Source of the DNA: Thermoproteota archaeon
GTDB taxonomy: Archaea; Korarchaeota; Korarchaeia; B14-G2
Length of the DNA: 26,177 nucleotides
NCBI GenBank assembly: GCA_003661385.1
Contig: QMWA01000007.1
Span: forward strand, 1 to 26,177
Reading direction: 5' to 3'
Shown here: positions 5,538 through 18,563 of the stretch, in pieces
Layout: the number at the start of each line of letters is the position of its first letter
Position numbering within the stretch: the stretch's first letter is position 1
Translations under genes and position numbers: made by a program
Notes under the pieces: model-generated
Told to the model about the DNA's origin: nothing
Databases searched by the model: none
The model's input: only the letters and a program-made list of their open reading frames with translations

Positions 5538-7706
<2,169 letters not shown>

Positions 7707-7849
7707 CACATTGCCTTCTCGAGCGATTAACCAGCTCCACCTATAGATTCACTGAGTGCCGCTAGCCAAGGGCTTCTGCATCTGCTCTCCAGTATAATCC
7801 TCTCCCCCTCCTTAGATACCCTTATAACTGTGTGATCCAGTAGCAGCTA
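7707..7849 (+). other. 143-base gap between cdc48 and tRNA-Pro
   Basis: Apart from the tRNA promoter near its right end I see nothing coding or structured here. A pyrimidine-rich run (CTCTCCCCCTCCTT, about 7800-7813) follows cdc48, but there is no clear T-tract terminator. Confidence 0.4.
7821..7827 (+). promoter_or_regulatory. TATA box of tRNA-Pro
   Basis: CTTATAA at 7821-7827 is centred 26 bases before the first base of the mature tRNA at 7850. With the usual archaeal spacing of about 25-27 bases, transcription would begin at or beside the tRNA 5' end, leaving almost no leader for RNase P to remove. Confidence 0.5.
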
Positions 7850-7880
7850 GGGGCCGTGGCCCAGCTTGGCCAGGGCGCCA

Positions 7881-7892
7881 ATGTAAGCGTGA
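7881..7892 (+). other. 12-base tRNA intron at non-canonical position 29/30
   Basis: The exon-intron fold supports this intron directly. Upstream CCAGG (7871-7875) pairs with CCTGG (7894-7898), and GCGC (7875-7878 region) pairs with GCGT (7887-7890 region, one G-T pair). This leaves the three-base bulge GAG on the 3' side and the loop starting CAA on the 5' side, with the cuts CA^A and GA^G. This is a bulge-helix-loop, a relaxed form of the bulge-helix-bulge splice motif. Base positions of the two helices are as read by eye; a one-base shift to the left gives the same mature tRNA. Confidence 0.7.
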
Positions 7893-7900
7893 GCCTGGGG

Positions 7901-7914
7901 GTGCTTCAGTGGAG
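7901..7914 (+). other. 14-base tRNA intron at canonical position 37/38
   Basis: This segment must be removed to give a seven-base anticodon loop and the GC...GC pairs that close the CCAGC/GCTGG stem. The 5' exon end CTGGGG can pair with CTTCAG (7904-7909) around a GTG loop, but the 3' bulge is then about six bases, so the splice motif is irregular. A cut one base to the left gives the same product. The boundary is less certain than that of the first intron. Confidence 0.55.
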
Positions 7915-9372
7915 CGCTGGAGGTCGCGGGTTCAAGTCCCGCCGGCCCCACCTAACATACTGTGGTGTTCTATCTATTACTTTAGTTAAGAAGGCCTCTA
8001 GTCTTGTCCCCTTGAGTTCAAGTATGTTCTTCTCTGTAAAGAGCTTGTAGCCTTCCTCTATACTTCCAGCTATCCTAGATGGGACTCCGATCGACTTCAT
8101 GGTGCTGCTATCGGATAGCAGCCGCTTTAAGACCTTAAGAACGTCGCTTTCTCTCTTTTTTACTACGACCCACCTGAAGTCCTGTATGAACGGCCCTTCT
8201 GCTGTGTCCTCTCTTCCAAGGTGCCTTTCTATGAACTTCATGCTTGCTTCCCTCTGCCAGACGAACGGCCCATAGTGTACCCTAGCCTCTGGTATCTGCC
8301 AGCTAGCCAGCTTAAATGCCAAAGCACCTGTGTCTACTTCATCTGTCCAGAAGCCAGATCCCAGTATCTGGGCTCCATGCTCCTCCATATATGCCCTGAT
8401 CTTGCTACATGCCTTCTCAAGCTGGCTCCACTGGACATCTGGAGGGGCCTTAGGCAGCTTGAAGACTACTACAGCAATGTGCTCACTTACCTCATTAGGC
8501 AGCCTCCTTTGTGGAGGCTTGAAGAAAAGGATGCTGGGCTTTGCTAGGAACACAGAGGAGGCAGCTATGAATGCTGATAGTGCCTGCCTGCCTACTGCTG
8601 CAGCGGCGTTTCTTCTTCTATCTACTGGATCTACTACTATTATCGGGGCATCAAACACCTCTCTAGCTTCTCTCGGAGTATAATACCTCTCTATATCGAT
8701 TATTATAGGAGGCTTCCATCTTGATGCTGCCCTGACAGCCTCCAGGAAGCTACCATAGTAGAGGACTAGCAGCTCCAGAAGGTACCCTGAGAAGCCTCTA
8801 GTCTTAGTTTCAGCTCCATATACTCCTATTCCTTTAGCAAAAGCTTTCATTAGCCTGATCTCGCCGCATAGCCTTGGGGTCAGCTTCTCCTTCAGGTACC
8901 TTTGGTGCAGCTGTGTCCTATCCACTGCACTTCTGAGCTGTGACGCATTTGACACTTTATAGCATGGTACAATGTCTATTTCAAAGCCCATGTGCTCTAT
9001 CCTGACATATGGGTGGCTTGAGTAAAGTAGCTCGTATCTGCCCTCTGAGACCTCTATCCCAGCTTTAACCCCTACCTCCTCCAGCGTCCTCTCATCTTCA
9101 CTTAGAGGAAATGCTAGGAAGATGTCTATGTCCCTGCTTCCAGAAAGCCACGTGTCTCTTGCTGTCGATCCGAGATGCATCACATCATAACTCCACCCAT
9201 GCTTGTCTCTCACATCTAGTAGCTTCCTTATGATGTCTGATACAGCCCGCTCTAGGGCTTTCTTCTCCTCTGGCTTTGGAGTCACTTCCTCTAGTACAAG
9301 CTTCAGGATGCTGTCCAAGCTCACCCCTAAGACCTTATATACATCCAGGGTTTTAACATGCTGATGTCTCAA
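7906..9372 (-). CDS. cca: CCA-adding enzyme (archaeal class I tRNA nucleotidyltransferase)
   Basis: The 488-residue protein carries the nucleotidyltransferase signature HLGSTARDTWLSGSRDIDIF, with Gly68-Ser69 and the metal-binding Asp81 and Asp83. Further archaeal CCA-enzyme segments are EIDIVPCYKV, SAVDRTQLHQRYL, VRLMKAF-type sequence, RGFSGYLLELLVLYYGSF, VVDPVDRRRNAAAAV and the FFKP motif. It adds CCA to tRNA 3' ends without a template, which is needed here because the neighbouring tRNA lacks an encoded CCA. The start is taken as TTG at 9372; GTG at 9324 is an alternative. The protein is somewhat longer than the Archaeoglobus enzyme. Its last 14 or so residues (WGRRDLNPRPPALH) are read antisense through the T arm of tRNA-Pro, and the stop codon lies in the tRNA's second intron. 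Confidence 0.92.
   Translation of the reverse strand: MRHQHVKTLDVYKVLGVSLDSILKLVLEEVTPKPEEKKALERAVSDIIRKLLDVRDKHGWSYDVMHLGSTARDTWLSGSRDIDIFLAFPLSEDERTLEEVGVKAGIEVSEGRYELLYSSHPYVRIEHMGFEIDIVPCYKVSNASQLRSAVDRTQLHQRYLKEKLTPRLCGEIRLMKAFAKGIGVYGAETKTRGFSGYLLELLVLYYGSFLEAVRAASRWKPPIIIDIERYYTPREAREVFDAPIIVVDPVDRRRNAAAAVGRQALSAFIAASSVFLAKPSILFFKPPQRRLPNEVSEHIAVVVFKLPKAPPDVQWSQLEKACSKIRAYMEEHGAQILGSGFWTDEVDTGALAFKLASWQIPEARVHYGPFVWQREASMKFIERHLGREDTAEGPFIQDFRWVVVKKRESDVLKVLKRLLSDSSTMKSIGVPSRIAGSIEEGYKLFTEKNILELKGTRLEAFLTKVIDRTPQYVRWGRRDLNPRPPALH
9334..9341 (+). promoter_or_regulatory. TATA box of the UPF0201 gene, inside the cca coding region
   Basis: CTTATATA is centred 26 bases upstream of the ATG at 9364, the spacing expected for a leaderless message. 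It lies within codons of the oppositely oriented cca gene. Confidence 0.5.
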
Positions 9373-9804
9373 ATAGTTGTAAGGGTTAGAACCCCCGTAT
9401 ATCCAACTGAAGACAGGGGCAAAGTAGAGAAAGCTGTGCTAAACGTCGCTAGTGGTGAGGTAAGGCACGCTGAGTCCTCCGTAATCCTGGTTGGGAGCGG
9501 TAAACATGCTCTTGAGAAGCTCTATAAGAGCTTTAGGGACAGGAGGATACTAGCTGCAGCTAGAAGGCTTCTGCTTGAAGGAAGAAGCCCTGATGGTAAG
9601 ACAATATGCTTCGAGCTAAACAAGCAAGCAGCATACCATGGTGTGATAAACTTTTCGCCGATACATTCACCTCCTCTTGGTGTCATAGAGGTCGTAATTG
9701 AGTGTGATGACGCCCTTGAAGTCATAAACTGGCTTTGCCCGCCTGCTATCGCATACCAGCCTCGACAACACGACAAGCACCGGAAAAATCGATCTCGACG
9801 GTAG
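9364..9804 (+). CDS. UPF0201 family protein (COG1931)
   Basis: The roughly 146-residue product matches the archaeal UPF0201 family. It shows VRVRTPVYPTEDRGKVEKAVLNV at the start, then RDRRILAAARRLLLEG, FELNKQAAYHGVINFS, and PLGVIEVVIECDDALEVINWLCPP at the end of the conserved part. The function is unknown; the family is small, cytoplasmic and largely archaeal. I prefer ATG at 9364 because it sits 26 bases after a TATA box; an in-frame ATG at 9358 is also possible. Both overlap the divergent cca start. The last 15 residues are very basic (QPRQHDKHRKNRSRR), lie past the conserved domain, and are encoded opposite the end of the RNase Z gene. They are probably a lineage-specific extension. Confidence 0.85.
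   Translation: MSQIVVRVRTPVYPTEDRGKVEKAVLNVASGEVRHAESSVILVGSGKHALEKLYKSFRDRRILAAARRLLLEGRSPDGKTICFELNKQAAYHGVINFSPIHSPPLGVIEVVIECDDALEVINWLCPPAIAYQPRQHDKHRKNRSRR
9397..9402 (-). promoter_or_regulatory. possible TATA element of cca, inside the UPF0201 coding region
   Basis: On the minus strand ATATAC lies about 27 bases before the TTG at 9372, consistent with a leaderless cca transcript. The match to a TATA box is only fair. Confidence 0.3.
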
Positions 9805-10696
9805 TGAAGTCTCTGCACGCCACAACTCTAGGGAAGTACTTCTTAGCTGCCTCTTCTGCCTCTTCTATGTCCTTGTTCCTGTACCTTGGGCTGAAGTGTG
9901 TTAGCAGTAGGAGGCCTACGCCACAGAGCTCAGCTACTTCACATGCATCCCGGTAACTGCTGTGTACACCTTCTTCAGCCAGCTTCTCGTCTCCAACTAG
10001 GTACATTGAGTCATGTATTAGCAGATTTGCTCCCTTTGCTTCTCTAACAACCCTATCACAGGGGGATGTATCTCCTGTGTAGACGACCTTCCTTCCTGGC
10101 TTAGCTTCTCCAAGAACTTCCTCTGGATGCACTACCCTCCCAGATGGCGTTCTGACAGCTTTGCCAAGTTGCAGCCTCTTCCTGAGGTGAACTGGAACAC
10201 CTAGCCTGTCAGCTTTCTCGACATCAAGCCTCCCTGGCCTGGGCTTCTCCTCTACTACTATACCGAATGCTGGAACACCGTGGTTCACTGGAAAAAGCCT
10301 GACATAATGCGTGTCGAACTCGAAGACTCTCTCATCTCTGACCTCTATTACTGAGAGCTCGTAACTGGGCTTCAGCCAAGTCCATCTGCCGACCTCCTCG
10401 ATTAAGCTTCTTATCCCCTCAGGGCCGACTATATACAGCGGCTTTTGTCTGTCTAGTAGTGTTAGAGTCTGAAGCAGCCCAAAGACTCCGAAGATGTGGT
10501 CTCCATGCAGGTGGGTTATGAAGATGTGGGTGAGGGGGCCTATCTTAAGCTTGCTTTTGAAGATCTGCCTCTGAGTGCAGCCTCCGCAGTCTAGCAGGTA
10601 AAGCCTCCCAGGCATCCTAACAGCTATAGCTGGCAGCCCTCTCTCTGGAGTAGGATAGGTGCCTCCTGAGCCCAGTATTGTCACTCTAATGGACAT
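9746..10696 (-). CDS. rnz: ribonuclease Z (tRNA 3' processing endonuclease)
   Basis: This 316-residue metallo-beta-lactamase-fold protein has the RNase Z zinc motif THLHGDH (His62, His64, Asp66, His67), the N-terminal ILGSGGTYPTPERG, VNHGVPAFGIVVEE, VVYTGDTSPCD and the late LLTHFSPRY. It cuts pre-tRNA just after the discriminator base, producing the end to which CCA is added. The enzyme is the short form found in archaea and bacteria. The segment GRLDVEKADRLGVP in the middle belongs to the flexible arm region that contacts tRNA. ATG at 10696-10694 is about 26 bases from a TATA element shared with the divergent aminotransferase. Its 3' end overlaps the convergent UPF0201 gene by 59 bases. Its close neighbour, cca, performs the next maturation step. 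Confidence 0.93.
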   Translation of the reverse strand: MSIRVTILGSGGTYPTPERGLPAIAVRMPGRLYLLDCGGCTQRQIFKSKLKIGPLTHIFITHLHGDHIFGVFGLLQTLTLLDRQKPLYIVGPEGIRSLIEEVGRWTWLKPSYELSVIEVRDERVFEFDTHYVRLFPVNHGVPAFGIVVEEKPRPGRLDVEKADRLGVPVHLRKRLQLGKAVRTPSGRVVHPEEVLGEAKPGRKVVYTGDTSPCDRVVREAKGANLLIHDSMYLVGDEKLAEEGVHSSYRDACEVAELCGVGLLLLTHFSPRYRNKDIEEAEEAAKKYFPRVVACRDFTTVEIDFSGACRVVEAGMR

Positions 10697-10716
10697 GAAA
10701 GCCAGCTGATAGCAAC

Positions 10717-10727
10717 CTTTATATTAT
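10717..10727. promoter_or_regulatory. bidirectional TATA element between rnz and the aminotransferase gene
   Basis: CTTTATATTAT can serve both strands. Leftwards its centre is 26 bases from the rnz ATG (10696), giving a leaderless message. Rightwards transcription would start near 10747, leaving about 15 bases of leader that contain AGGTG (10753-10757) five bases before the ATG at 10763. Confidence 0.5.
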
Positions 10728-10762
10728 TAGGCTGCTCCATCCGGTCTAAGTTAGGTGCTGCC

Positions 10763-12043
10763 ATGCGTAGTTCTTCTTCCATCTACGACTTTGCTGCCTG
10801 GACTCAGCTCATTCCTGAGTCTGAGATTAGAAGGCTCCTAAGGTACAATGTAAGGTACTACTTCGCTGGTGGGAAGCCTGGAAAGATCCCCATAGAGGCT
10901 ATGGCTAAGATACTGATTGAAATAGGACAGGAGCAGCTTGGGATGCTAGAGGAGGGGAGGTACGAGGAAGCCTTGGAGCAGTACAACTACGGCCCAACTG
11001 AGGGCATACCTGCTCTCAGAGAGGTCTTAGCTAAGAGGATGAAGGAGAAAGATGGGATAGAAGTAGATCCAGGCGACTTAGTGATAACCTCTGGCTCCCA
11101 GCAGGCACTATATGCCATCTTAGACACCCTCATAGACAAGGGAGACGTGATAATGGTTTCTTCACCAGCCTACTTAGGTTTTGTGATGCCTGCTGTAAAG
11201 CTTGGGGCTAGAATAGTGATAGTACCATCTGATAGAGAAGGAATCATCCCAGAGTATATTGATGAGGCATTTGAAGCTGCAGTTAAGGAGCTTGGCAAGA
11301 AGCCTGAGATTCTCTACCTGATCCCAGACTCAAACAACCCAACTGGCTCTACTCTACCAGAGAAGAGGAGGAAGCAGGTGTTCGATATATGTGCTGAAAA
11401 AGAGATTCTGATCATAGAGGATGCTGCATACAGGGAGATGCAGTTCACGGAGAGCAGGCTCCCACCGCTTAAGGCATATGACAGGGACAACCAGTATGTA
11501 GCTTACATAAGGTCATCATCCAAGGAAGCTGCTCCGCTCAGAATAGGGTACATACTTGTCCCTACTCCAGTAAGAGAGCAGGTAATCAAGGCTAAAGGCT
11601 ACTATGACCTATGCTCCTCAACTCTGGTGCAGTACATACTAGCCAGGTACTATAGCAAGTACATAGACAAGTACCTACCCGAGATACTAGCTGAGTACAA
11701 GAAGAGATGTGATGCCTTGAAGAAGGCTATGGATGAGAGCTTTCCCACAGGGTGGAGAACAGACCCGACTGGAGGGTTCTTCATCTGGTGGGAGTCAGAG
11801 AGGAAGGACTTTGACTCAAAGAGGTTCCTTGAGGAGGTGGCTCTGAAAAATGACATAATCTACGTGCCAAGCCGCGCATTCTATCCCCCAACAGGCTATC
11901 AGTATGATCCGTCCAGCAGGAAGCTCTCCCCAAGCTGCCCAAAGAGCAATGGGATGAGGCTGTGCTTCGTCTATAAGCCTCCTGAAGTTCTCACAGAGGG
12001 CGCACTGAAGCTAGGCCGGCTACTGTCCCAGCACCTCTCCTAG
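10763..12043 (+). CDS. class I/II PLP-dependent aminotransferase
   Basis: The 426-residue protein has all the hallmarks of fold-type I aminotransferases. YNYGPTEGIPALREVLA is at about 74-90, TSGSQQALYAI at about 109-119, PDSNNPTG with the PLP-contacting Asn, and EDAAY (Asp220, Tyr223). SSSKEAAPLRIGY supplies the Schiff-base Lys254. A C-terminal arginine in NGMRLCFVY probably binds the substrate carboxylate. The overall pattern resembles the archaeal LysN/aromatic aminotransferase group, which is related to the catalytic part of MocR regulators. The amino donor and acceptor cannot be told apart from sequence. A ribosome binding site AGGTG precedes the ATG. Its TAG stop shares the palindrome CTAG (12040-12043) with the stop of the convergent UbiA gene. 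Confidence 0.9.
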   Translation: MRSSSSIYDFAAWTQLIPESEIRRLLRYNVRYYFAGGKPGKIPIEAMAKILIEIGQEQLGMLEEGRYEEALEQYNYGPTEGIPALREVLAKRMKEKDGIEVDPGDLVITSGSQQALYAILDTLIDKGDVIMVSSPAYLGFVMPAVKLGARIVIVPSDREGIIPEYIDEAFEAAVKELGKKPEILYLIPDSNNPTGSTLPEKRRKQVFDICAEKEILIIEDAAYREMQFTESRLPPLKAYDRDNQYVAYIRSSSKEAAPLRIGYILVPTPVREQVIKAKGYYDLCSSTLVQYILARYYSKYIDKYLPEILAEYKKRCDALKKAMDESFPTGWRTDPTGGFFIWWESERKDFDSKRFLEEVALKNDIIYVPSRAFYPPTGYQYDPSSRKLSPSCPKSNGMRLCFVYKPPEVLTEGALKLGRLLSQHLS

Positions 12044-12921
12044 ATGCTCAGCGCTCCCACCGTGTAAGCTAGTATACCGAGCCCCATTACTATTATTGAG
12101 TAGTTCCTGCTCCTTCTAAGGCTTTCTCTGCTGCATCTAAGTGCTAGCATGGCTGTCACAACAGCTATTGAATCCGCCACTGCTATGATAGCTGCATACC
12201 ATATGCTCCTCAGTAGAGAGATGTATGGCACTATGCTCATGACTACTGCCATCAGGAAGAATGCAGCAGCAATCTGAGATGCTCTTCTAGCTCCCACTAC
12301 CATGGCTGCTGTCCTTATCCCTCTTAGCTTGTCTCCCTCCAGGTCAATTATGTCCTTCATTACCTCTCTGCCAAACCCATAGAGGAACGCTATCATACCC
12401 AATACTAGCATGTTAATCCATACAATACCGCTGGCTTCTTTCACCATAAAGCAGCCATAAACGCATGGAACCATGTAGCTTAGTCCTACTACCACATTCT
12501 TGACGCTCCAATGCAGCTCCTTTAGCTTCCAGCTGTAGAGTGCTCCAATGCCAGTAGCAAACACCAGCGCTGCTGCGAATGCTTTTATCGAGATTAGCGC
12601 TGCCACACCTACTCCTACTGCATACGCTACCATGGATCCATAGAGCGCTGCACTTGGGCTTATTTCACCGGATACAAGGGGCCTATCAAGCCTTCTATTA
12701 GCCCTATCGACCTCGATGTCAAAGTAGTCGTTTATCGCGAAGCTGGCTGCCGTAATCAGCACACCTACCAGGAATCCTGTAATGGAGTTTGCTGCGCTTA
12801 GCTCAGCATGCGTTAGCTTACAGACCACTGTGTAGCTTGCTACTACAGCTAGCCCAGCTATCAACGCATGTTCGAACCTAGTCAGCCTCCATGCTCCTAC
12901 AAAGACTCTAGCTGCTCTCAA
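12040..12921 (-). CDS. UbiA-family prenyltransferase, probably digeranylgeranylglyceryl phosphate synthase
   Basis: This 293-residue membrane protein has about eight hydrophobic segments and both Asp-rich prenyl-diphosphate motifs of the UbiA family: NDYFDIEVDRANRRLDRP (Asn64 to about 81) and DIIDLEGDKLRGIRTAA near residue 195. The loop following the first motif (RPLVSGEIS) is typical of archaeal DGGGP synthase, which attaches the second geranylgeranyl chain to the glycerol phosphate backbone of ether lipids. That fits with Tes elsewhere in the window, which acts later on finished archaeol lipids. UbiA relatives that make quinones or hemes remain possible. The start is TTG at 12921, overlapping the upstream nucleotidyltransferase by 14 bases. 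It is the last gene of the Sua5-Kae1 operon. Confidence 0.85.
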   Translation of the reverse strand: MRAARVFVGAWRLTRFEHALIAGLAVVASYTVVCKLTHAELSAANSITGFLVGVLITAASFAINDYFDIEVDRANRRLDRPLVSGEISPSAALYGSMVAYAVGVGVAALISIKAFAAALVFATGIGALYSWKLKELHWSVKNVVVGLSYMVPCVYGCFMVKEASGIVWINMLVLGMIAFLYGFGREVMKDIIDLEGDKLRGIRTAAMVVGARRASQIAAAFFLMAVVMSIVPYISLLRSIWYAAIIAVADSIAVVTAMLALRCSRESLRRSRNYSIIVMGLGILAYTVGALSI

Positions 12922-13351
12922 GTAGCTGCTTCACCCTGCTGAGTATTTCTGTCGTGCTGTTTGGTTTAGCGTTGTACTTTGGGAGTCTGATTACCTCTAC
13001 TTCAAGCCCTCTTGCGAGAAGTGCTTGCTTCAGCTCGTTTTCATCAAATGGCTGGTCATATCCAAGTGCTATCACATCAGGCTTTATCTCACATACTATC
13101 TTAAGCAGGTCGTCTCCGCTGCTACCTAGCACAGCCTTGTCAACAGGCTTAAGATTCTCTACAATGAACCTCCTAGATTCCTCTGGGACTATGGGGTCTC
13201 TACCCTTTAGCCGCCTCACATTCCTGTCTCTGGCAATAACTACTATTAGCTCTCCTCCTTCTCCTGCTATCTCTCTTGCCTTAGTGAGCATCTTGATGTG
13301 AGCTGGGTGTATTATGTCAAAGCACCCTCCTACCAGAACCCTCTTTCCCAT
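12908..13351 (-). CDS. nucleotidyltransferase of the RibL/TagD family (probable FAD synthase)
   Basis: The 147-residue protein is a single Rossmann-like cytidylyltransferase fold. LVGGCFDIIHPAHIKML is the nucleotide-binding loop, RRLKGRDPIVPEESRRFIVENLKPVDKAVLG is the middle, and DVIALGYDQPFDENELKQ is the end, with NSTTEILSRV in the place of the family's C-terminal motif. This matches archaeal RibL, which uses CTP or ATP to make FAD from FMN. The canonical HxGH motif reads HPAH, with Ala in place of Gly; the two histidines are intact. Glycerol-phosphate cytidylyltransferase is an alternative, and the neighbouring ether-lipid gene makes it worth considering. The start is ATG at 13351, seven bases after the PF04008 gene. 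Confidence 0.8.
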   Translation of the reverse strand: MGKRVLVGGCFDIIHPAHIKMLTKAREIAGEGGELIVVIARDRNVRRLKGRDPIVPEESRRFIVENLKPVDKAVLGSSGDDLLKIVCEIKPDVIALGYDQPFDENELKQALLARGLEVEVIRLPKYNAKPNSTTEILSRVKQLLESS

Positions 13352-13358
13352 CCTCCTT

Positions 13359-13844
13359 CTACCTCTTGTACCCTATTTCTCTCAGGAACTTGTGTCTCTC
13401 CTCCTTGTCCTTTTCTGTTTCAACGCCTTTCGTCTTGATGCCGTCTATTACGCCGAGCAATCCCCTGCCTTGCTCTGTTTCTGCTACTATTGCCTGAACT
13501 GGGTTTGCTGTGGCGCAGAAGAGGGTAACTAGCTCATCTACGACCCTCAGCCTGGCTAAGACGTTTATTGGGTATGCGTTCTTGAAGAGGATGACGAAGC
13601 AGTGCCCTGCTGACAGCTTAAGAGCGTGCTCTACAGCTTTCTTGGTGAGCTCCTCATCATTTCCGTCGTACCTCACTAAGGCAGGTCCACTAGACTCGCA
13701 GAACGCTATGCCGAACTTTACACCTGGTACAGAGTTCACCATGGCCTCATATAGGTCCTCTACGGTCTTTATGAAGTGGGACATCCCGACTATCATCTGG
13801 CAGCCTTCCGGAGGTGTGAGGTCCACAACCTCTATCTTGACCAT
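13359..13844 (-). CDS. adenosine-specific kinase family protein (PF04008)
   Basis: The product, about 161 residues, matches the COG1839/PF04008 family. It starts with VKIEVVDLTPPEGCQMIVGMSHFIKTVEDLYEA, followed by GVKFGIAFCESSGPALVRYDGND and AGHCFVILFKNAYPINVL, and ends with CATANPVQAIVAETEQGRGLLGVIDG. A crystal structure of a Pyrobaculum homologue led to the adenosine-kinase name, but the biochemical role is thinly supported. I chose ATG at 13844 because GGGGGGAG ends one base before it and family similarity begins there. An upstream in-frame GTG at 13886 would overlap cytidylate kinase and add 14 unconserved residues. It sits in the middle of the Sua5-Kae1 operon. Confidence 0.85.
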   Translation of the reverse strand: MVKIEVVDLTPPEGCQMIVGMSHFIKTVEDLYEAMVNSVPGVKFGIAFCESSGPALVRYDGNDEELTKKAVEHALKLSAGHCFVILFKNAYPINVLARLRVVDELVTLFCATANPVQAIVAETEQGRGLLGVIDGIKTKGVETEKDKEERHKFLREIGYKR

Positions 13845-13875
13845 GCTCCCCCCTATAGCTCTCCTAAAGCTGCTC

Positions 13876-14460
13876 TTAACTATCACGCTCGAAGAAGTAC
13901 TGGATGTAGCTCTTCACTATGTAGAACACTTGGTCAGCTGTCAGTCTGCTTGTGTCCACTACGAGGTTGAAGGGTTCTAGATCCCTTCCTATGGTGAAGC
14001 CGTAGAGCTCTCTGTAGATCTCTCTTGTCATCTCCTCTTTTCTTCTGATTGCTTCCAGAGCCTCGCTTACGGTTATACCATCTCTCCTAGCCACTCTTTC
14101 TGCTCTAACCTCGAGTTCCCCCTTGAGGAACACCTTGACGGCGTCTTTTCCATCGTATAAGTAGGGGAGGGCCCACCCGTCTACTACTATGCTGCTTGCC
14201 GCCTTAACCTTCATGAGCAGGTGTCTGTCAACTTCTCTATCAAGCTCTAGCCTTTCCCTCCTTTCCCTCAGGAATCTCAGCCCCTCCTCGCTCTCCCACC
14301 AGCCTACCTGGGACACCTTGTAGCCCAGCCTTGATGCGACTTCCTTCAGAGCATCTCCGCCAGAGTAGTACTCTAGCTCAAACTCAGATGCAAGCCTCCT
14401 ACATAGGGTAGTTTTCCCTGTGCCTGCTAGCCCGCTTACAAGTATCTTCAAGCTAACCAC
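13876..14460 (-). CDS. cytidylate kinase-type nucleotide kinase
   Basis: The 194-residue P-loop protein begins KILVSGLAGTGKTTLCRRLA, a Walker A motif at about 9-17. This is followed by YYSGGDALKEVASRLG, IVVDGWALPYL, RAERVARRDGITVSEALEAIRRKEEMTREIYRELYG and a closing FNLVVDTSRLTADQV. This order is that of archaeal CMP/dCMP kinases, which phosphorylate CMP for RNA, DNA and CDP-lipid synthesis. AMP or other NMP specificity cannot be excluded. The annotated start is GTG at 14460, but TTG at 14451 is attractive because AGGTGG (14462-14457) lies exactly five bases before it. The start region overlaps or abuts the end of kae1, whose TAG is at 14455-14453. Confidence 0.82.
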   Translation of the reverse strand: MVSLKILVSGLAGTGKTTLCRRLASEFELEYYSGGDALKEVASRLGYKVSQVGWWESEEGLRFLRERRERLELDREVDRHLLMKVKAASSIVVDGWALPYLYDGKDAVKVFLKGELEVRAERVARRDGITVSEALEAIRRKEEMTREIYRELYGFTIGRDLEPFNLVVDTSRLTADQVFYIVKSYIQYFFERDS

Positions 14461-15448
14461 CTGCCTGCTCCTCTCTTAACGTGCTTAAGTCTATGAGCTC
14501 CCAGCTGTCATCATCTATCCTCCAGTTTGGCATTATCCAGCTTTCACCCTCCCACTTGCCCTGCATATATGCTAGTATGCCGGTCCAGGCTATCATAACC
14601 CCATTATCTCTGGCTAGCTTCGGCTCTACTGCATAAAACTCAGCTCCCCGCTCTCTGCACATTAACCTGAATTTCTCTCTTAGCTTAGGTGAGGCTGCGA
14701 CTCCTCCCGTGAGCACAAGCTGTTTTTTCCCTATGTGAGCCAGTGCTCTCTCAGCTACCTCAACCAGCATGGAGAAGCTCACCTCCATGAAGCTGTAGAT
14801 GACATCCTCCATCTTAGCCCCCTGTTTAGCTCTCTTAATGGCCTCTGTGACCAAACCGCTGTAAGCGAGGTTCATTCCCTTCACCGTGTAAGGTAGGTCT
14901 ATCCACCTTCCAACGACTCTATCCATGTACGGTCCCGGTGGGTTTGGGATCCCAAGCTCTCTAGCAAGCTTATCTTGGGCGTTTCCTAGCCCTATGTCCT
15001 CAGTTTCACCTAGCACCCTATACCTTCCCTCAGAGTATGCAATGACCTGTGTGTTCCCCCCTGATACGTAGACGACAACTGGGTCGTGGAAGCCTGAGAG
15101 CAGCCTAGCTAGCTCAACGTGCGCGGTGCAGTGGTTGACGCCAATCAGCGGCTTCTTGAGGATGTACGCCAGCGTTCTAGCTACTATAGCCCCAATGCTG
15201 AGGCATGGAGGCAGCCCTGGCCCTCTCGAGAAGCACACTATGTCTATCTCCTCTGGGCTGATCAAGCTGAAGACCCTGCTAATGAGCTTGTCTGCAGCAT
15301 GATAGTGGTGCTCACTTGCCTCCTGAGGCTTTATCCCTCCTGACGGGGGTGTGTAGACTGCTCGTTCATCAGCTACTATCCTACCTCTGCTATCCACTAC
15401 AGCTACTCCAAGCGTGTGTGCAGTGGATTCAATGCCTAGCGAGAGCAT
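14453..15448 (-). CDS. kae1: KEOPS catalytic subunit Kae1 (tRNA t6A37 threonylcarbamoyltransferase)
   Basis: This 331-residue ASKHA-fold protein begins LSLGIESTAHTLGVAVVD. It carries the metal-binding histidines in NHCTAHVE (His106, His110), VVYVSGGNTQVIAY, ETEDIGLGNAQDKLARELGIP, LTGGVAASPKLREK and ARDNGVMIAW with the third metal ligand Asp. It transfers threonylcarbamoyl from TC-AMP to A37 of tRNAs that read ANN codons. There is no Bud32 kinase fused at the C-terminus, unlike many euryarchaeal homologues. The ATG at 15448-15446 has a strong ribosome binding site (GGAGGTG) ending four or five bases upstream and overlaps the end of sua5 by 20 bases. The preceding enzyme makes its substrate, so the operon pairs the two catalytic steps. 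Confidence 0.95.
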   Translation of the reverse strand: MLSLGIESTAHTLGVAVVDSRGRIVADERAVYTPPSGGIKPQEASEHHYHAADKLISRVFSLISPEEIDIVCFSRGPGLPPCLSIGAIVARTLAYILKKPLIGVNHCTAHVELARLLSGFHDPVVVYVSGGNTQVIAYSEGRYRVLGETEDIGLGNAQDKLARELGIPNPPGPYMDRVVGRWIDLPYTVKGMNLAYSGLVTEAIKRAKQGAKMEDVIYSFMEVSFSMLVEVAERALAHIGKKQLVLTGGVAASPKLREKFRLMCRERGAEFYAVEPKLARDNGVMIAWTGILAYMQGKWEGESWIMPNWRIDDDSWELIDLSTLREEQAGG

Positions 15449-16067
15449 CCCTCACCTCCCTGAGGACCTCTGAGAAGGGTATAGGTCCTTCTCTCACTAA
15501 GACTGGTGTAGCTCCAGTTACATCTATTATGGTTGAAGGCTTTCTGATTGGCAGCTGGCCTGCATCCAGTACTAGGTGAACTAGGCTTCCGAGCTGCCTA
15601 TAGGCTTCGAGGGCAGAGTATGGGGGAGGCATTCCTGTTATGTTGGCGCTGGTGGCTACAACAGGCCTGCCAAGCTTCTCAGCTAGCTCTAGTGCGACTT
15701 TGCAGCCGGGAATTCTCACACCGATGCCCCTAGGGTTCACCACGCTTGGTATGCTCCTTCTCTTCGGCAATATCACTGTGAGCGGTCCAGGCATGAATTT
15801 CTCCATGATAACCCTAGCTACATCGGTTACTATGGCATAGTCTTCTGCCATCTTCATGTTTGAGACTGTGACTGTAAGGTACTTGTTGAGGGGCCTCCTC
15901 TTCACCGCATAAACATCTAGGACAGCTCTGGTATTAAAGGCGTCTGCTCCAAGCGCATATGCTGTGTCTGTTGGGTATATTACAAGCCCACCGAGCTTCA
16001 GCACTTCAACAGCCTTCTCGATGGCTCTGATATCTGGCTTATCATAGTCTACTCTAACTACCCTCAT
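15429..16067 (-). CDS. threonylcarbamoyl-AMP synthase (Sua5/YwlC/TsaC)
   Basis: The 212-residue protein is a YrdC-domain enzyme. It shows GGLVIYPTDTAYALGADAFN, YAVKRRPLNKYLTVTVS, FMPGPLTVILP, IGVRIPGCKVALELAEKLGRPVVATSANITG and RKPSTIIDVTG. It joins threonine, bicarbonate and ATP to make TC-AMP, the donor used by Kae1. The C-terminal Sua5 domain found in the long form (total about 340 residues) is absent, so this is the short TsaC-like version. ATG is at 16067-16065. It is the first gene of a six-gene minus-strand operon reaching to 12040, with a TATA-like TTTTA about 27 bases upstream. Confidence 0.93.
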   Translation of the reverse strand: MRVVRVDYDKPDIRAIEKAVEVLKLGGLVIYPTDTAYALGADAFNTRAVLDVYAVKRRPLNKYLTVTVSNMKMAEDYAIVTDVARVIMEKFMPGPLTVILPKRRSIPSVVNPRGIGVRIPGCKVALELAEKLGRPVVATSANITGMPPPYSALEAYRQLGSLVHLVLDAGQLPIRKPSTIIDVTGATPVLVREGPIPFSEVLREVRDALARH

Positions 16068-16089
16068 ACCTTAGGTTAAGGTGCTGCTC

Positions 16090-16108
16090 TCTAAAAGAAT
16101 ATATTTTC
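16090..16108. promoter_or_regulatory. divergent promoter region between sua5 and map
   Basis: Rightwards, AATATATTTT (16099-16107 region) is centred about 26 bases before the ATG at 16128. Leftwards, TCTTTTAG on the minus strand is centred about 27 bases before the sua5 ATG at 16067. Both genes therefore look leaderless and their core promoters sit side by side within about 20 bases. Confidence 0.5.
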
Positions 16109-16127
16109 ATGTGGCTGGATACCCTTG

Positions 16128-17036
16128 ATGGAACCTGATGTGATCGAAGGCTATGCTAAAGCTGGGGCTGTTCTATCAGATCTTCTGCTAAAGCACTCTA
16201 GAGGCATCTCTCAGGGCACTTCCATCTTAGACGTGTGCGAGAGAATAGAGCATGAGATACTTGAAGCAGGGTGTAAGCCGGCTTTCCCAGTGAACTTCTC
16301 AGTTAACAGCGTGGCAGCTCACTATACGGCAAAGCCTGGAGACGGCTTAAGGGTCGAGGGGCTCGCGCTCGTAAAGTTGGATGTTGGTGTGCACTATGAC
16401 GGCTACATAGCGGATGCAGCTGTCTCAGTTTGCGTCGATGGCTATGGGCTGGAGCTTAAGGAAGCCTGTGAAAGTGCTCTTGAGAAGGCTTTGTCTCGTG
16501 TGCGGGAAGGTACAAGAGTCCGCGAGATAAGCTCTGTAATAGACGAAGAAATAAGGAGGCTTGGTGCAAAACCGATCTCAAACCTAACAGGCCATATGAT
16601 AGGGAGATATAAGCTTCATGCTGGGGTATCTATTCCAAATGTCAAGTCCTGGTCTCCACTGTATAGGCTAAAGACGGGAGATGTCCTCGCTATCGAGCCG
16701 TTTGCTACGTTCCCTGATGCAGCTGGTGTTGTTGTGGAGCAGCCTCCAGCGCAGATATTCTCTCTAGCTAGACGTAGGAAGCCTAGGGGGAGGGTAGAGG
16801 CTGCAATCTTGTCCTATGCCTCCGAGCTCAAGGGGCTGCCCTTCTGTAGGCGGTGGGTTAAGGGAAGGCTTGGAGCAATGTATGCTGCTGAGCTAGATAG
16901 GCTGGCTAGGATAGGTGTTCTCCGCGCTTATCCTCCTCTGCTTGAGGCTTCAGGAGCTCCTGTAGCTCAAGCTGAGGCCACAGTTGTGGTTGACGGGGAC
17001 GGGGCTCATGTTGTAGCTGCTCCATTCAGGTGGTAG
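16128..17036 (+). CDS. map: methionine aminopeptidase, type II
   Basis: The 302-residue pita-bread-fold enzyme removes N-terminal Met from new proteins. Two-metal ligands are visible in order: LDVGVHYDGYIADAA (two Asp), TGHMIGRYKLHAG (His), LAIEPFAT (Glu) and AQAEATVVV (Glu). The insertion between the His and the last Glu, including a helical domain (ILSYASELKGLPFCRRWV...LARIGVLRAYPPLLE), is the type II hallmark. The last motif reads AQAEATV where QAEHT is more usual; the metal ligand Glu is kept. Start: ATG at 16128, which is 26 bases from a TATA box; a TTG at 16125 directly precedes it. One base separates its stop from the hjc start. Confidence 0.93.
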   Translation: MEPDVIEGYAKAGAVLSDLLLKHSRGISQGTSILDVCERIEHEILEAGCKPAFPVNFSVNSVAAHYTAKPGDGLRVEGLALVKLDVGVHYDGYIADAAVSVCVDGYGLELKEACESALEKALSRVREGTRVREISSVIDEEIRRLGAKPISNLTGHMIGRYKLHAGVSIPNVKSWSPLYRLKTGDVLAIEPFATFPDAAGVVVEQPPAQIFSLARRRKPRGRVEAAILSYASELKGLPFCRRWVKGRLGAMYAAELDRLARIGVLRAYPPLLEASGAPVAQAEATVVVDGDGAHVVAAPFRW

Positions 17037-17037
17037 C

Positions 17038-17463
17038 TTGCCTAAGAGAGGGGACTACATAGAGCGTAAGCTCGTGGACATCATGTGGAGGGAGGGGCAT
17101 GGAGCTATCAGGAGCCCTGGAAGCGGAGCTTCCACGCATCCATCTCCAGATGTTCTTGCTTGCATAAATGGCAAGCTGTATGCTTTCCAAGTGAAGTCCA
17201 CAGCCAGCGATAGAATCGTATACACCTGGGAGGAGATAGCTCAGCTAGCTACATTCTGTGAGAGGTTTAGTGCAGAACCTTGGCTGGTAGCTGCCTTTAC
17301 GAGGCTAGCTCCAGGTGAGCTTTTTTTCATGAAAGCTGCTAATCTCCCAGAGAAAAGGGGTAAGACCTTCTCCATCCGGCTGGCTGAGGCTAAAAAGTCT
17401 TGGATGAGGCTCAAGGACTTTCTAGACCAAGCATCTGGGAGAGTGCCTCCACTACCGCTCTAA
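17038..17463 (+). CDS. hjc: Holliday junction resolvase Hjc, with an altered metal-binding residue
   Basis: The 141-residue protein has the archaeal Hjc layout: KRGDYIERKLVDIMWREGHGAIRSPGSGAS with the conserved Glu9 and Ser-rich loop, PSPDVLA with Asp38, then KLYAFQVKST. The enzyme normally cuts four-way junctions symmetrically using Glu, Asp and Glu-x-Lys as metal ligands and catalytic residues. Here the third position is Gln51 (QVK) rather than Glu; Lys53 is kept. The nuclease superfamily contains active QxK variants, so activity is not ruled out. The start is TTG at 17038, with AGGTGG (17028-17033) four bases before it. The stop overlaps that of the convergent EndA gene by four bases. It is co-transcribed with map. 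Confidence 0.87.
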   Translation: MPKRGDYIERKLVDIMWREGHGAIRSPGSGASTHPSPDVLACINGKLYAFQVKSTASDRIVYTWEEIAQLATFCERFSAEPWLVAAFTRLAPGELFFMKAANLPEKRGKTFSIRLAEAKKSWMRLKDFLDQASGRVPPLPL

Positions 17464-18563
17464 AGCTTCCTCCAGCTGAACTTATAGTTAACTACTCTGT
17501 CCCCGTCGACTACAGTCACTACAAACGTCTTTCTCACCGATGTTGCTATACGCCCTGCTCTGATGAGCTCGACTGGAAGTATCATCTCATCAGGGGTTGA
17601 AACCAGGCACATGTATGGTCCATGATCTATTCCTGGGCCAAGCTCATAGAACATGAAGTCCACTCCATACTTTGATGCCGGCTTGACTATGTACCCCTTA
17701 TCCCTCCAGTACGTGTATGCTGCTATCTTCTCTGCTCCCTTCATCCTGCTTCTAGCATGCAGGTCAATTATCTCCTTGACGCTGATCACAGTGTGTGTAC
17801 CTGCCTTATACAGCTTTATCTTACCTTTCTCAGCTAGGTAGCATGCTTCGGTTAAAGAGAGCTGTAGTGGCCTCTCATAGTACTGGCCATGCTTCGGCTT
17901 GGCTATCCCTATGAAATGCCCCCAGAACCCTGCCTTGTATATGGCATTTCCAGCTTTATGGTCCCACACTATGACTCTGTCATGCATTACTATACCTTCA
18001 ACTTCAGGGAAAGATAGGTCGACTTCACGTATCTTCCTTGGCTGGAACTCCTCTGCAGCATAGTAGCTTATGTTCATTTCATCATCGATTACTGCGAATA
18101 CTAGGCTTTTTCTAGCTACCTGGGCGTACTTTATCTTCTCTAGTATCTCACTTTGTCTCACAGGCTTATCCTCTGAAATGCAGTATATCAGGGTGGTTGC
18201 TGGCGTCTCTCCTACCCTCCCTCCTCTCGGGTAAAGCCTGATGAACGGGGTGTTAAGCTCCACCTTTGCCAGTCTCCCCTTGGTTCTTAGGTCTTTGAAG
18301 ACAAAGTACCTGAGTATATTGTCTGGGCTAGCTCTCACAGAGTCCTCTAGGATCTCCAGTGCAGTAACTTCTCTGTTATCCTGCTTTACCGCTATCTTGT
18401 CCTGCTCAAGTAGGTGGACTGCTGTCACCGAAGGCATTACGTACTCTCCACTTGGCACTCTTTCGACATATCCCTTTTCATATAGCTCCTCCACGTCTCC
18501 TCCGCTCCTGTAGTATATTTCGTTGAAGCCTTTGTACTCGAAAATAGCTTTTCCACCCTCCAT
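17460..18563 (-). CDS. endA: tRNA-splicing endonuclease EndA (two-repeat form)
   Basis: The 367-residue protein contains two endonuclease repeats. The N-terminal one (about 27-170: LYEKGYVERVPSGEYVMPSVTAVHLLEQDK, then YFVFKDLRTKGRLAKV) lacks catalytic residues. The C-terminal one (about 233-360: LSLTEACYLAEKGKIKL, YTYWRDKGYIVKPASKYGVDF) carries the triad Tyr306, His314 and Lys345, spaced much as in the Methanocaldococcus enzyme. This is the alpha2 homodimer type. It excises introns from tRNA precursors such as the tRNA-Pro in this window. The start ATG at 18563 is supported because LYEKG...YLSP-like N-terminal residues match known homologues. A second in-frame ATG at 18437 (residue 43) overlaps the stop of the upstream membrane protein. 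Confidence 0.88.
   Translation of the reverse strand: MEGGKAIFEYKGFNEIYYRSGGDVEELYEKGYVERVPSGEYVMPSVTAVHLLEQDKIAVKQDNREVTALEILEDSVRASPDNILRYFVFKDLRTKGRLAKVELNTPFIRLYPRGGRVGETPATTLIYCISEDKPVRQSEILEKIKYAQVARKSLVFAVIDDEMNISYYAAEEFQPRKIREVDLSFPEVEGIVMHDRVIVWDHKAGNAIYKAGFWGHFIGIAKPKHGQYYERPLQLSLTEACYLAEKGKIKLYKAGTHTVISVKEIIDLHARSRMKGAEKIAAYTYWRDKGYIVKPASKYGVDFMFYELGPGIDHGPYMCLVSTPDEMILPVELIRAGRIATSVRKTFVVTVVDGDRVVNYKFSWRKL

Follow-up and report, generated by a model that had tools for sequence, protein, structure and literature searches.

The window analysed here, a stretch of 26,177 nt from an archaeal genome, contains at 7850-7950 a predicted tRNA-Pro(GGG) gene, which our sequence analysis confirms as interrupted at positions 29/30 and 37/38 (counted from the first tRNA base, 7850). 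Exon 1 (7850..7880, plus strand; positions 1-29) carries the acceptor 5' strand, the D arm and the 5' part of the anticodon stem, and is followed by a 12-nt intron at the non-canonical site 29/30 (intron 1, 7881..7892, plus strand, ATGTAAGCGTGA). Exon 2 (7893..7900, plus strand; positions 30-37) holds the anticodon GGG at 7897-7899 and is separated by a 14-nt intron at the canonical site 37/38 (intron 2, 7901..7914, plus strand, GTGCTTCAGTGGAG) from exon 3 (7915..7950, plus strand; positions 38-73), which supplies the anticodon stem 3' strand, the variable loop, the T arm, the acceptor 3' strand and A73. Unspliced, the region scores 46.7 bits with the Rfam tRNA model RF00005 (cut-off 29). Removal of 7881-7892 and 7901-7914 leaves a 74-nt body plus the discriminator A73, with perfect acceptor (GGGGCCG/CGGCCCC), D (GCCC/GGGC), anticodon and T (GCGGG/CCCGC) stems, and thus, once spliced, the cloverleaf, anticodon and four paired stems of an archaeal tRNA-Pro(GGG). 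A likely box A (TATA), TTATAA, lies at 7822..7827 on the plus strand, at -28 to -23 relative to the start of the tRNA. This spacing is that of the genome's other tRNA genes, for which 37 readable upstream regions have an A+T content of 73-89% at -30 to -24 and of about 50% elsewhere. ARAGORN reported no tRNA in the window, this gene included, presumably because it cannot handle introns such as 7881-7892 and 7901-7914, and the scan for the gene with Rfam at the gathering threshold and with fast filters gave no match. Low-threshold Rfam matches, either partial tmRNA-like ones or due to chance, were dismissed, as the 3' half of the tRNA accounts for them.

The 3' part of the tRNA gene overlaps, at 7906-7950, the antisense 3' end of a gene for a CCA-adding enzyme (archaeal CCA tRNA nucleotidyltransferase; 7906..9372, minus strand; TIGR03671, 422.9 bits, cut-off 281.3). 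The stop codon of this gene, TGA (7906-7908), falls within intron 2, its last residues, GRRDLNPRPPALH, are read from the antisense of the tRNA, and its C-terminus is about 15-20 residues longer than those of its relatives; a scan of the genome contigs with the CCA-adding enzyme gave no match. Both genes lie in a cluster of tRNA-maturation genes at 7850-18563, identified with NCBIfam, that also encodes RNase Z (9746-10696), Kae1 (14453-15448), threonylcarbamoyladenylate synthase (15429-16067) and the tRNA-splicing endonuclease EndA (17460-18563).

The extent of the two introns is fixed by comparison with relatives. We searched 26 genomes of the class, the source genome among them, with the spliced tRNA-Pro(GGG), and 22 contain it at full length and uninterrupted. 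Because the same tRNA is uninterrupted in these 22 relatives, deletion of 7881-7892 and 7901-7914 is forced; the excess over the relatives is exactly 12 plus 14 bases. The anticodon arm of 21 of the 22, GCCAGCCTGGGGCGCTGG (CCAGC-CTGGGGC-GCTGG), agrees in every base with the product expected after splicing, and in the 22nd, G006, a single anticodon-stem pair is altered on both sides, so that pairing is compensated. Aligned to the tRNA-Pro(GGG) of G002, which we take to be Korarchaeum cryptofilum OPF8, the spliced sequence scores 78 and the unspliced sequence 38; the best of 300 shuffles of the middle scored 67. No second tRNA-Pro(GGG) came up when the source genome was searched with the spliced sequence. 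The site of intron 2 is independently supported, since 37/38 is also interrupted in the tRNA-Pro(GGG) genes of two genomes that belong to other families of the phylum, by 13 nt with four of four central pairs in G026 and by 11 nt with three of four in G028. Exact copies of intron 1 were not found elsewhere in the phylum, where matches had 2-3 mismatches. The first-pass annotation, made from the letters of the window, had proposed a tRNA-Pro(GGG), introns of 12 and 14 nt at these coordinates, a perfect CCAGC/GCTGG anticodon stem after their removal and an archaeal setting. The RF00005 score, the spliced cloverleaf and the uninterrupted relatives bear out the identity, the introns and the stem, and the source genome belongs to the class Korarchaeia.

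Intron 1 is embedded in a motif of the kind expected for the archaeal splicing endonuclease. This motif (7870..7898, plus strand) consists of an outer helix of five pairs between CCAGG of the D arm (7870-7874) and CCTGG (7894-7898, bases 31-35), a central helix of four pairs between GCGC (7875-7878) and GCGT (7887-7890; G-U, C-G, G-C, C-G), the bulges CAA (7879-7881) and GAG (7891-7893), and a 5-nt terminal loop (7882-7886). With this loop on its inner side it is a bulge-helix-bulge-type motif in bulge-helix-loop form, the clean one anticipated by the first-pass annotation. The intron 2 motif is relaxed. Its bulges are GGG and AGC, its outer helix is the anticodon stem (five of five pairs after removal of intron 1, three before), and its central helix, CUGG (32-35) with GUGG (7909-7912), has C-G, U-G and G-U pairs and one G-G mismatch. 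An irregular CTGGGG/CTTCAG pairing had earlier been placed at this second site. That pairing is real, but it forms a competing hairpin, predicted to be more stable than the motif, and the splice motif is CUGG/GUGG; on the hairpin, the 4-bp ruler would place the cut at 7911/7912, and the anticodon loop would come out 10 nt long.

Since bases 31-35 are used in both motifs, the two are mutually exclusive, and this may affect the order of splicing. When the acceptor and T arms are constrained to form, the folding energy of the full precursor is -48.1 kcal/mol with motif 1 and -32.9 kcal/mol with motif 2, and motif 2 reaches -41.1 kcal/mol once intron 1 has been removed; these values, obtained with 37 C parameters and for an unusual motif, are just indicative. 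The folding thus speaks for intron 1 being removed first, and the earlier remark that the order may matter holds energetically. Order dependence between closely spaced introns is known from other archaea (PMC8450103). A free order, or excision of intron 2 first, is unlikely but deserves some weight. While intron 1 is present, A7892-G7893-C7894 can pair with G39-C40-U41 to give intron 2 three outer pairs, and the minimum-energy fold of the precursor lacking intron 2 contains the intron 1 motif; against this, motif 2 is about 15 kcal/mol worse than motif 1 in the full precursor.

The exact borders leave a one-base ambiguity by sequence at each intron, 28/29 or 29/30 for the first and 36/37 or 37/38 for the second. 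Intron 1 could be placed at 28/29 (7880-7891), intron 2 at 36/37 (7900-7913), or both, as A7880 and A7892 and likewise G7900 and G7914 are interchangeable, which sequence alone does not decide; the mature tRNA-Pro(GGG) would be identical. We consider such a shift very improbable, as the shifted motifs have just two of four central pairs and at most one outer pair: 29/30 gives 4/4 central and 5/5 outer pairs against 2/4 and 0/5 for 28/29, and 37/38 gives 3/4 and 5/5 against 2/4 and 1/5 for 36/37. The sites 29/30 and 37/38 were chosen because the bulge-helix-bulge geometry is better there than one base over. The presence of two insertions within one small gene and the imperfect intron 2 motif might suggest a pseudogene in decay that has taken up two insertions at random. 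This is scarcely credible given that splicing leaves no mispaired position in any of the four stems, the exons give exactly the anticodon arm of the relatives, the source genome yielded no other tRNA-Pro(GGG), the promoter box is in place, the insertions lie at motif-defined sites, and insertions of this type occur in 35 of 41 tRNA genes.

With high confidence we predict a functional tRNA-Pro(GGG) gene at 7850-7950. Its two introns would be excised by EndA, probably intron 1 first, with joining by RtcB and subsequent CCA addition. In the proposed pathway, the one-chain EndA encoded 10 kb away would act as a dimer and cut the bulge-helix-loop that pairing of the D arm with bases 31-35 creates around intron 1 at 29/30, and RtcB would ligate the exons. 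The released bases 31-35 could then refold into the anticodon stem-loop, from which both helices, outer and central, of the relaxed intron 2 motif would be built. Intron 2 would be excised next, at 37/38, and the CCA end added afterwards. The gene, both introns, the geometry of the motifs and the genes for EndA, RtcB and the CCA-adding enzyme are findings of this analysis, from which we infer cleavage by the window's EndA, the precedence of intron 1 over intron 2, and dimer formation.

EndA (17460..18563, minus strand; 367 aa) combines structural and catalytic halves in one chain, with two matches to PF01974, one to PF02778, and TIGR00324 above its cut-off. The C-terminal half is closest to the catalytic subunit of Aeropyrum pernix (115 bits), and a Crenarchaea-type specific loop, GFWGHFIGIAKPKHG, aligns with GYYGQPLDVEKPRG of A. 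pernix, such that K221-P222-K223 (P0002 numbering, Met1 omitted) align with K44-P45-R46 of its broad-specificity loop. In the A. pernix endonuclease P45A and R46A drastically reduced cleavage, and the lysine is a proposed RNA-binding residue (PMC12397907, PMC6379350). The K-P of the loop and the likely catalytic triad Y305, H313 and K344 are invariant in the class alignment, and EndA thus has the fused units, the conserved catalytic region and the Lys-Pro-basic loop of a korarchaeal one-chain enzyme. Its AlphaFold model (pLDDT 88.9) gives structural matches to the M. kandleri fused enzyme (Z 33.5), to a broad-specificity A. fulgidus chimera (Z 28.2) and to the A. fulgidus enzyme (Z 27.9), and the predicted fold agrees with those of homodimeric archaeal endonucleases. 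The window's EndA may also cut relaxed and non-canonical motifs. Elsewhere in the source genome, RtcB matches (L193 and L194, G000:C181:2538-3718) identify a likely tRNA ligase gene; its frame is broken by a frame change near the 5' third, possibly an assembly error.

The first-pass annotation had described two introns of this size in one tRNA, one of them at a non-canonical site in the anticodon stem, as seen in only some archaeal groups. Within the source genome the layout of tRNA-Pro(GGG) is not special: two or three introns occur in 14 of 41 tRNA genes. The census covers the 41 readable tRNA genes detected by RF00005; each was aligned, with splicing allowed, to the tRNAs of G002, most of which are uninterrupted, and seven genes were corrected by hand. 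Of the 41, 35 are interrupted, by about 51 introns of 10-47 nt (median 13), at sites that include the canonical 37/38, the D arm, 25/26, 29/30-31/32 and the T-loop. A full 4-bp central helix accompanies 27 of 51 introns against 4.3% in intron shuffles, a control that slightly favours the observed set, since only real introns were scored in two contexts with the better one kept. The intron density is about 1.2 per tRNA gene; published values are 0.21 for archaea and 0.84 for Thermoproteales (PMC8450103).

Relatives differ widely in this respect. In G002 (1,590,757 bp), whose tRNA-Pro(GGG) is uninterrupted, clear interruptions affect just 4 of about 45 tRNA genes, and in other members of the Korarchaeum family most tRNA matches, among those listed, are of uninterrupted length. 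Automatic calls, taken as they stand and among the matches listed, give 19 of 27 interrupted tRNA genes in G021, from another family of the class, and 29 of 38 in G026, 12 of 16 in G027 and 17 of 21 in G028, all of the same phylum. Because these four genomes are rich as well, intron abundance is not unique to the source genome, and we dropped the idea of an intron burst confined to its lineage.

Several other tRNA genes have unusual features. Our first search pattern for tRNA-Pro in relatives, GGGGCCGTGGCCCAGCYTGG, was abandoned, as it matched another Korarchaeum tRNA, which we read as tRNA-Trp. In Korarchaeum relatives this gene has a D-loop insert and a 37/38 intron (L002, L003, L004, L007, L008 and L012 at about 1500); the inserts contain complementary runs, GTCCCCC/GGGGGAC in G002 and CTCCCCC/GGGGGAG in G016, a possible compensatory change which suggests that the two introns may pair. 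The first insert also has a box C-like ATGATA/ATGATT. In the source genome, a tRNA-Thr(TGT)-like gene (L074, G000:C25, about 6680-6780) has an apparent insert of 14-22 nt directly behind the acceptor stem (about 8/9), preceded by a repeat of the 5' acceptor strand, GCCCCGGT. A tRNA-Ala(CGC) gene (L019, G000:C2:18416-18513) has a first intron of 10-11 nt that seems to lie in the anticodon loop on the 5' side of the anticodon (32/33 or 33/34), and a second at 37/38.

We compared intron content with the third residue of the EndA loop, which is K in the source genome, G026, G027 and G028, R in G007 and G009, and E, D or Q in Korarchaeum-like and Methanodesulfokora enzymes. All intron-rich genomes in which EndA was found have K-P-K; in G021 none turned up. 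The link between loop and introns is only partial, because G009 has K-P-R yet mostly tRNA matches of uninterrupted length. A tentative reading, to which we give a little less than even weight, is that Korarchaeota outside the Korarchaeum family are broadly rich in micro-introns, a condition perhaps ancestral and lost in Korarchaeum relatives, and that they process these introns with a natural one-chain EndA bearing the loop, whose second basic residue (K-P-K) gave way to K-P-E where introns are few.

Much of this has precedents. The site 29/30, multi-intron tRNAs and introns from 11 nt up have been published (PMC4090602); Pyrobaculum islandicum tRNA-Pro(UGG) has introns at 25/26, 37/38 and 56/57 (PMC4090602, PMC8450103), and P. 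calidifontis has 71 introns in 46 tRNA genes (PMC8450103). The multi-intron tRNAs of Thermoproteales resemble ours in their short endonuclease introns at canonical and non-canonical sites, including 29/30, in their strict and relaxed motifs and in order dependence (PMC4090602, PMC8450103). They belong, however, to another phylum and go with an (alpha-beta)2 enzyme, whereas here 29/30 and 37/38 are combined in tRNA-Pro(GGG) and processing seems to rely on a one-chain enzyme. Closer to our case, multi-intron tRNAs and a proposed korarchaeal homodimeric endonuclease with the specific loop were described for K. cryptofilum (Fujishima and Kanai 2014, PMC4033280), then the only archaeon with a homodimeric looped enzyme type known to have non-canonical introns. 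It shares with the source genome the class, the two-domain looped endonuclease and non-canonical introns (PMC4033280), and differs in the small number of interrupted tRNA genes noted above, set against 35 of 41 here. PDB 3p1y, an engineered broad-specificity A. fulgidus endonuclease with an inserted Crenarchaea-specific loop (PMC6379350), is the second-best structural match: it aligns with the EndA model over 310 residues (Z 28.2, rmsd 3.4) and is, as predicted for EndA, a homodimer plus loop. That enzyme was made in the laboratory; the window's EndA appears to be its natural counterpart. Micro-introns, site 29/30, two-intron tRNAs and the looped korarchaeal endonuclease are thus already described. 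What is new is that deep korarchaeotal genomes are so rich in tRNA introns, and that a loop motif follows this richness in part; neither the intron-rich deep lineages nor the loop contrast was found in the open-licence literature searched.

Taken alone, the tRNA-Pro(GGG) gene is one more two-intron archaeal tRNA, and it illustrates why annotation programs may miss such genes, as ARAGORN did in this window. The source genome offers a natural setting in which to test whether an extra endonuclease loop lets tRNA introns spread, with the same one-chain enzyme present both in intron-rich genomes (the source genome, G026, G027 and G028) and in the intron-poor genomes of Korarchaeum relatives.
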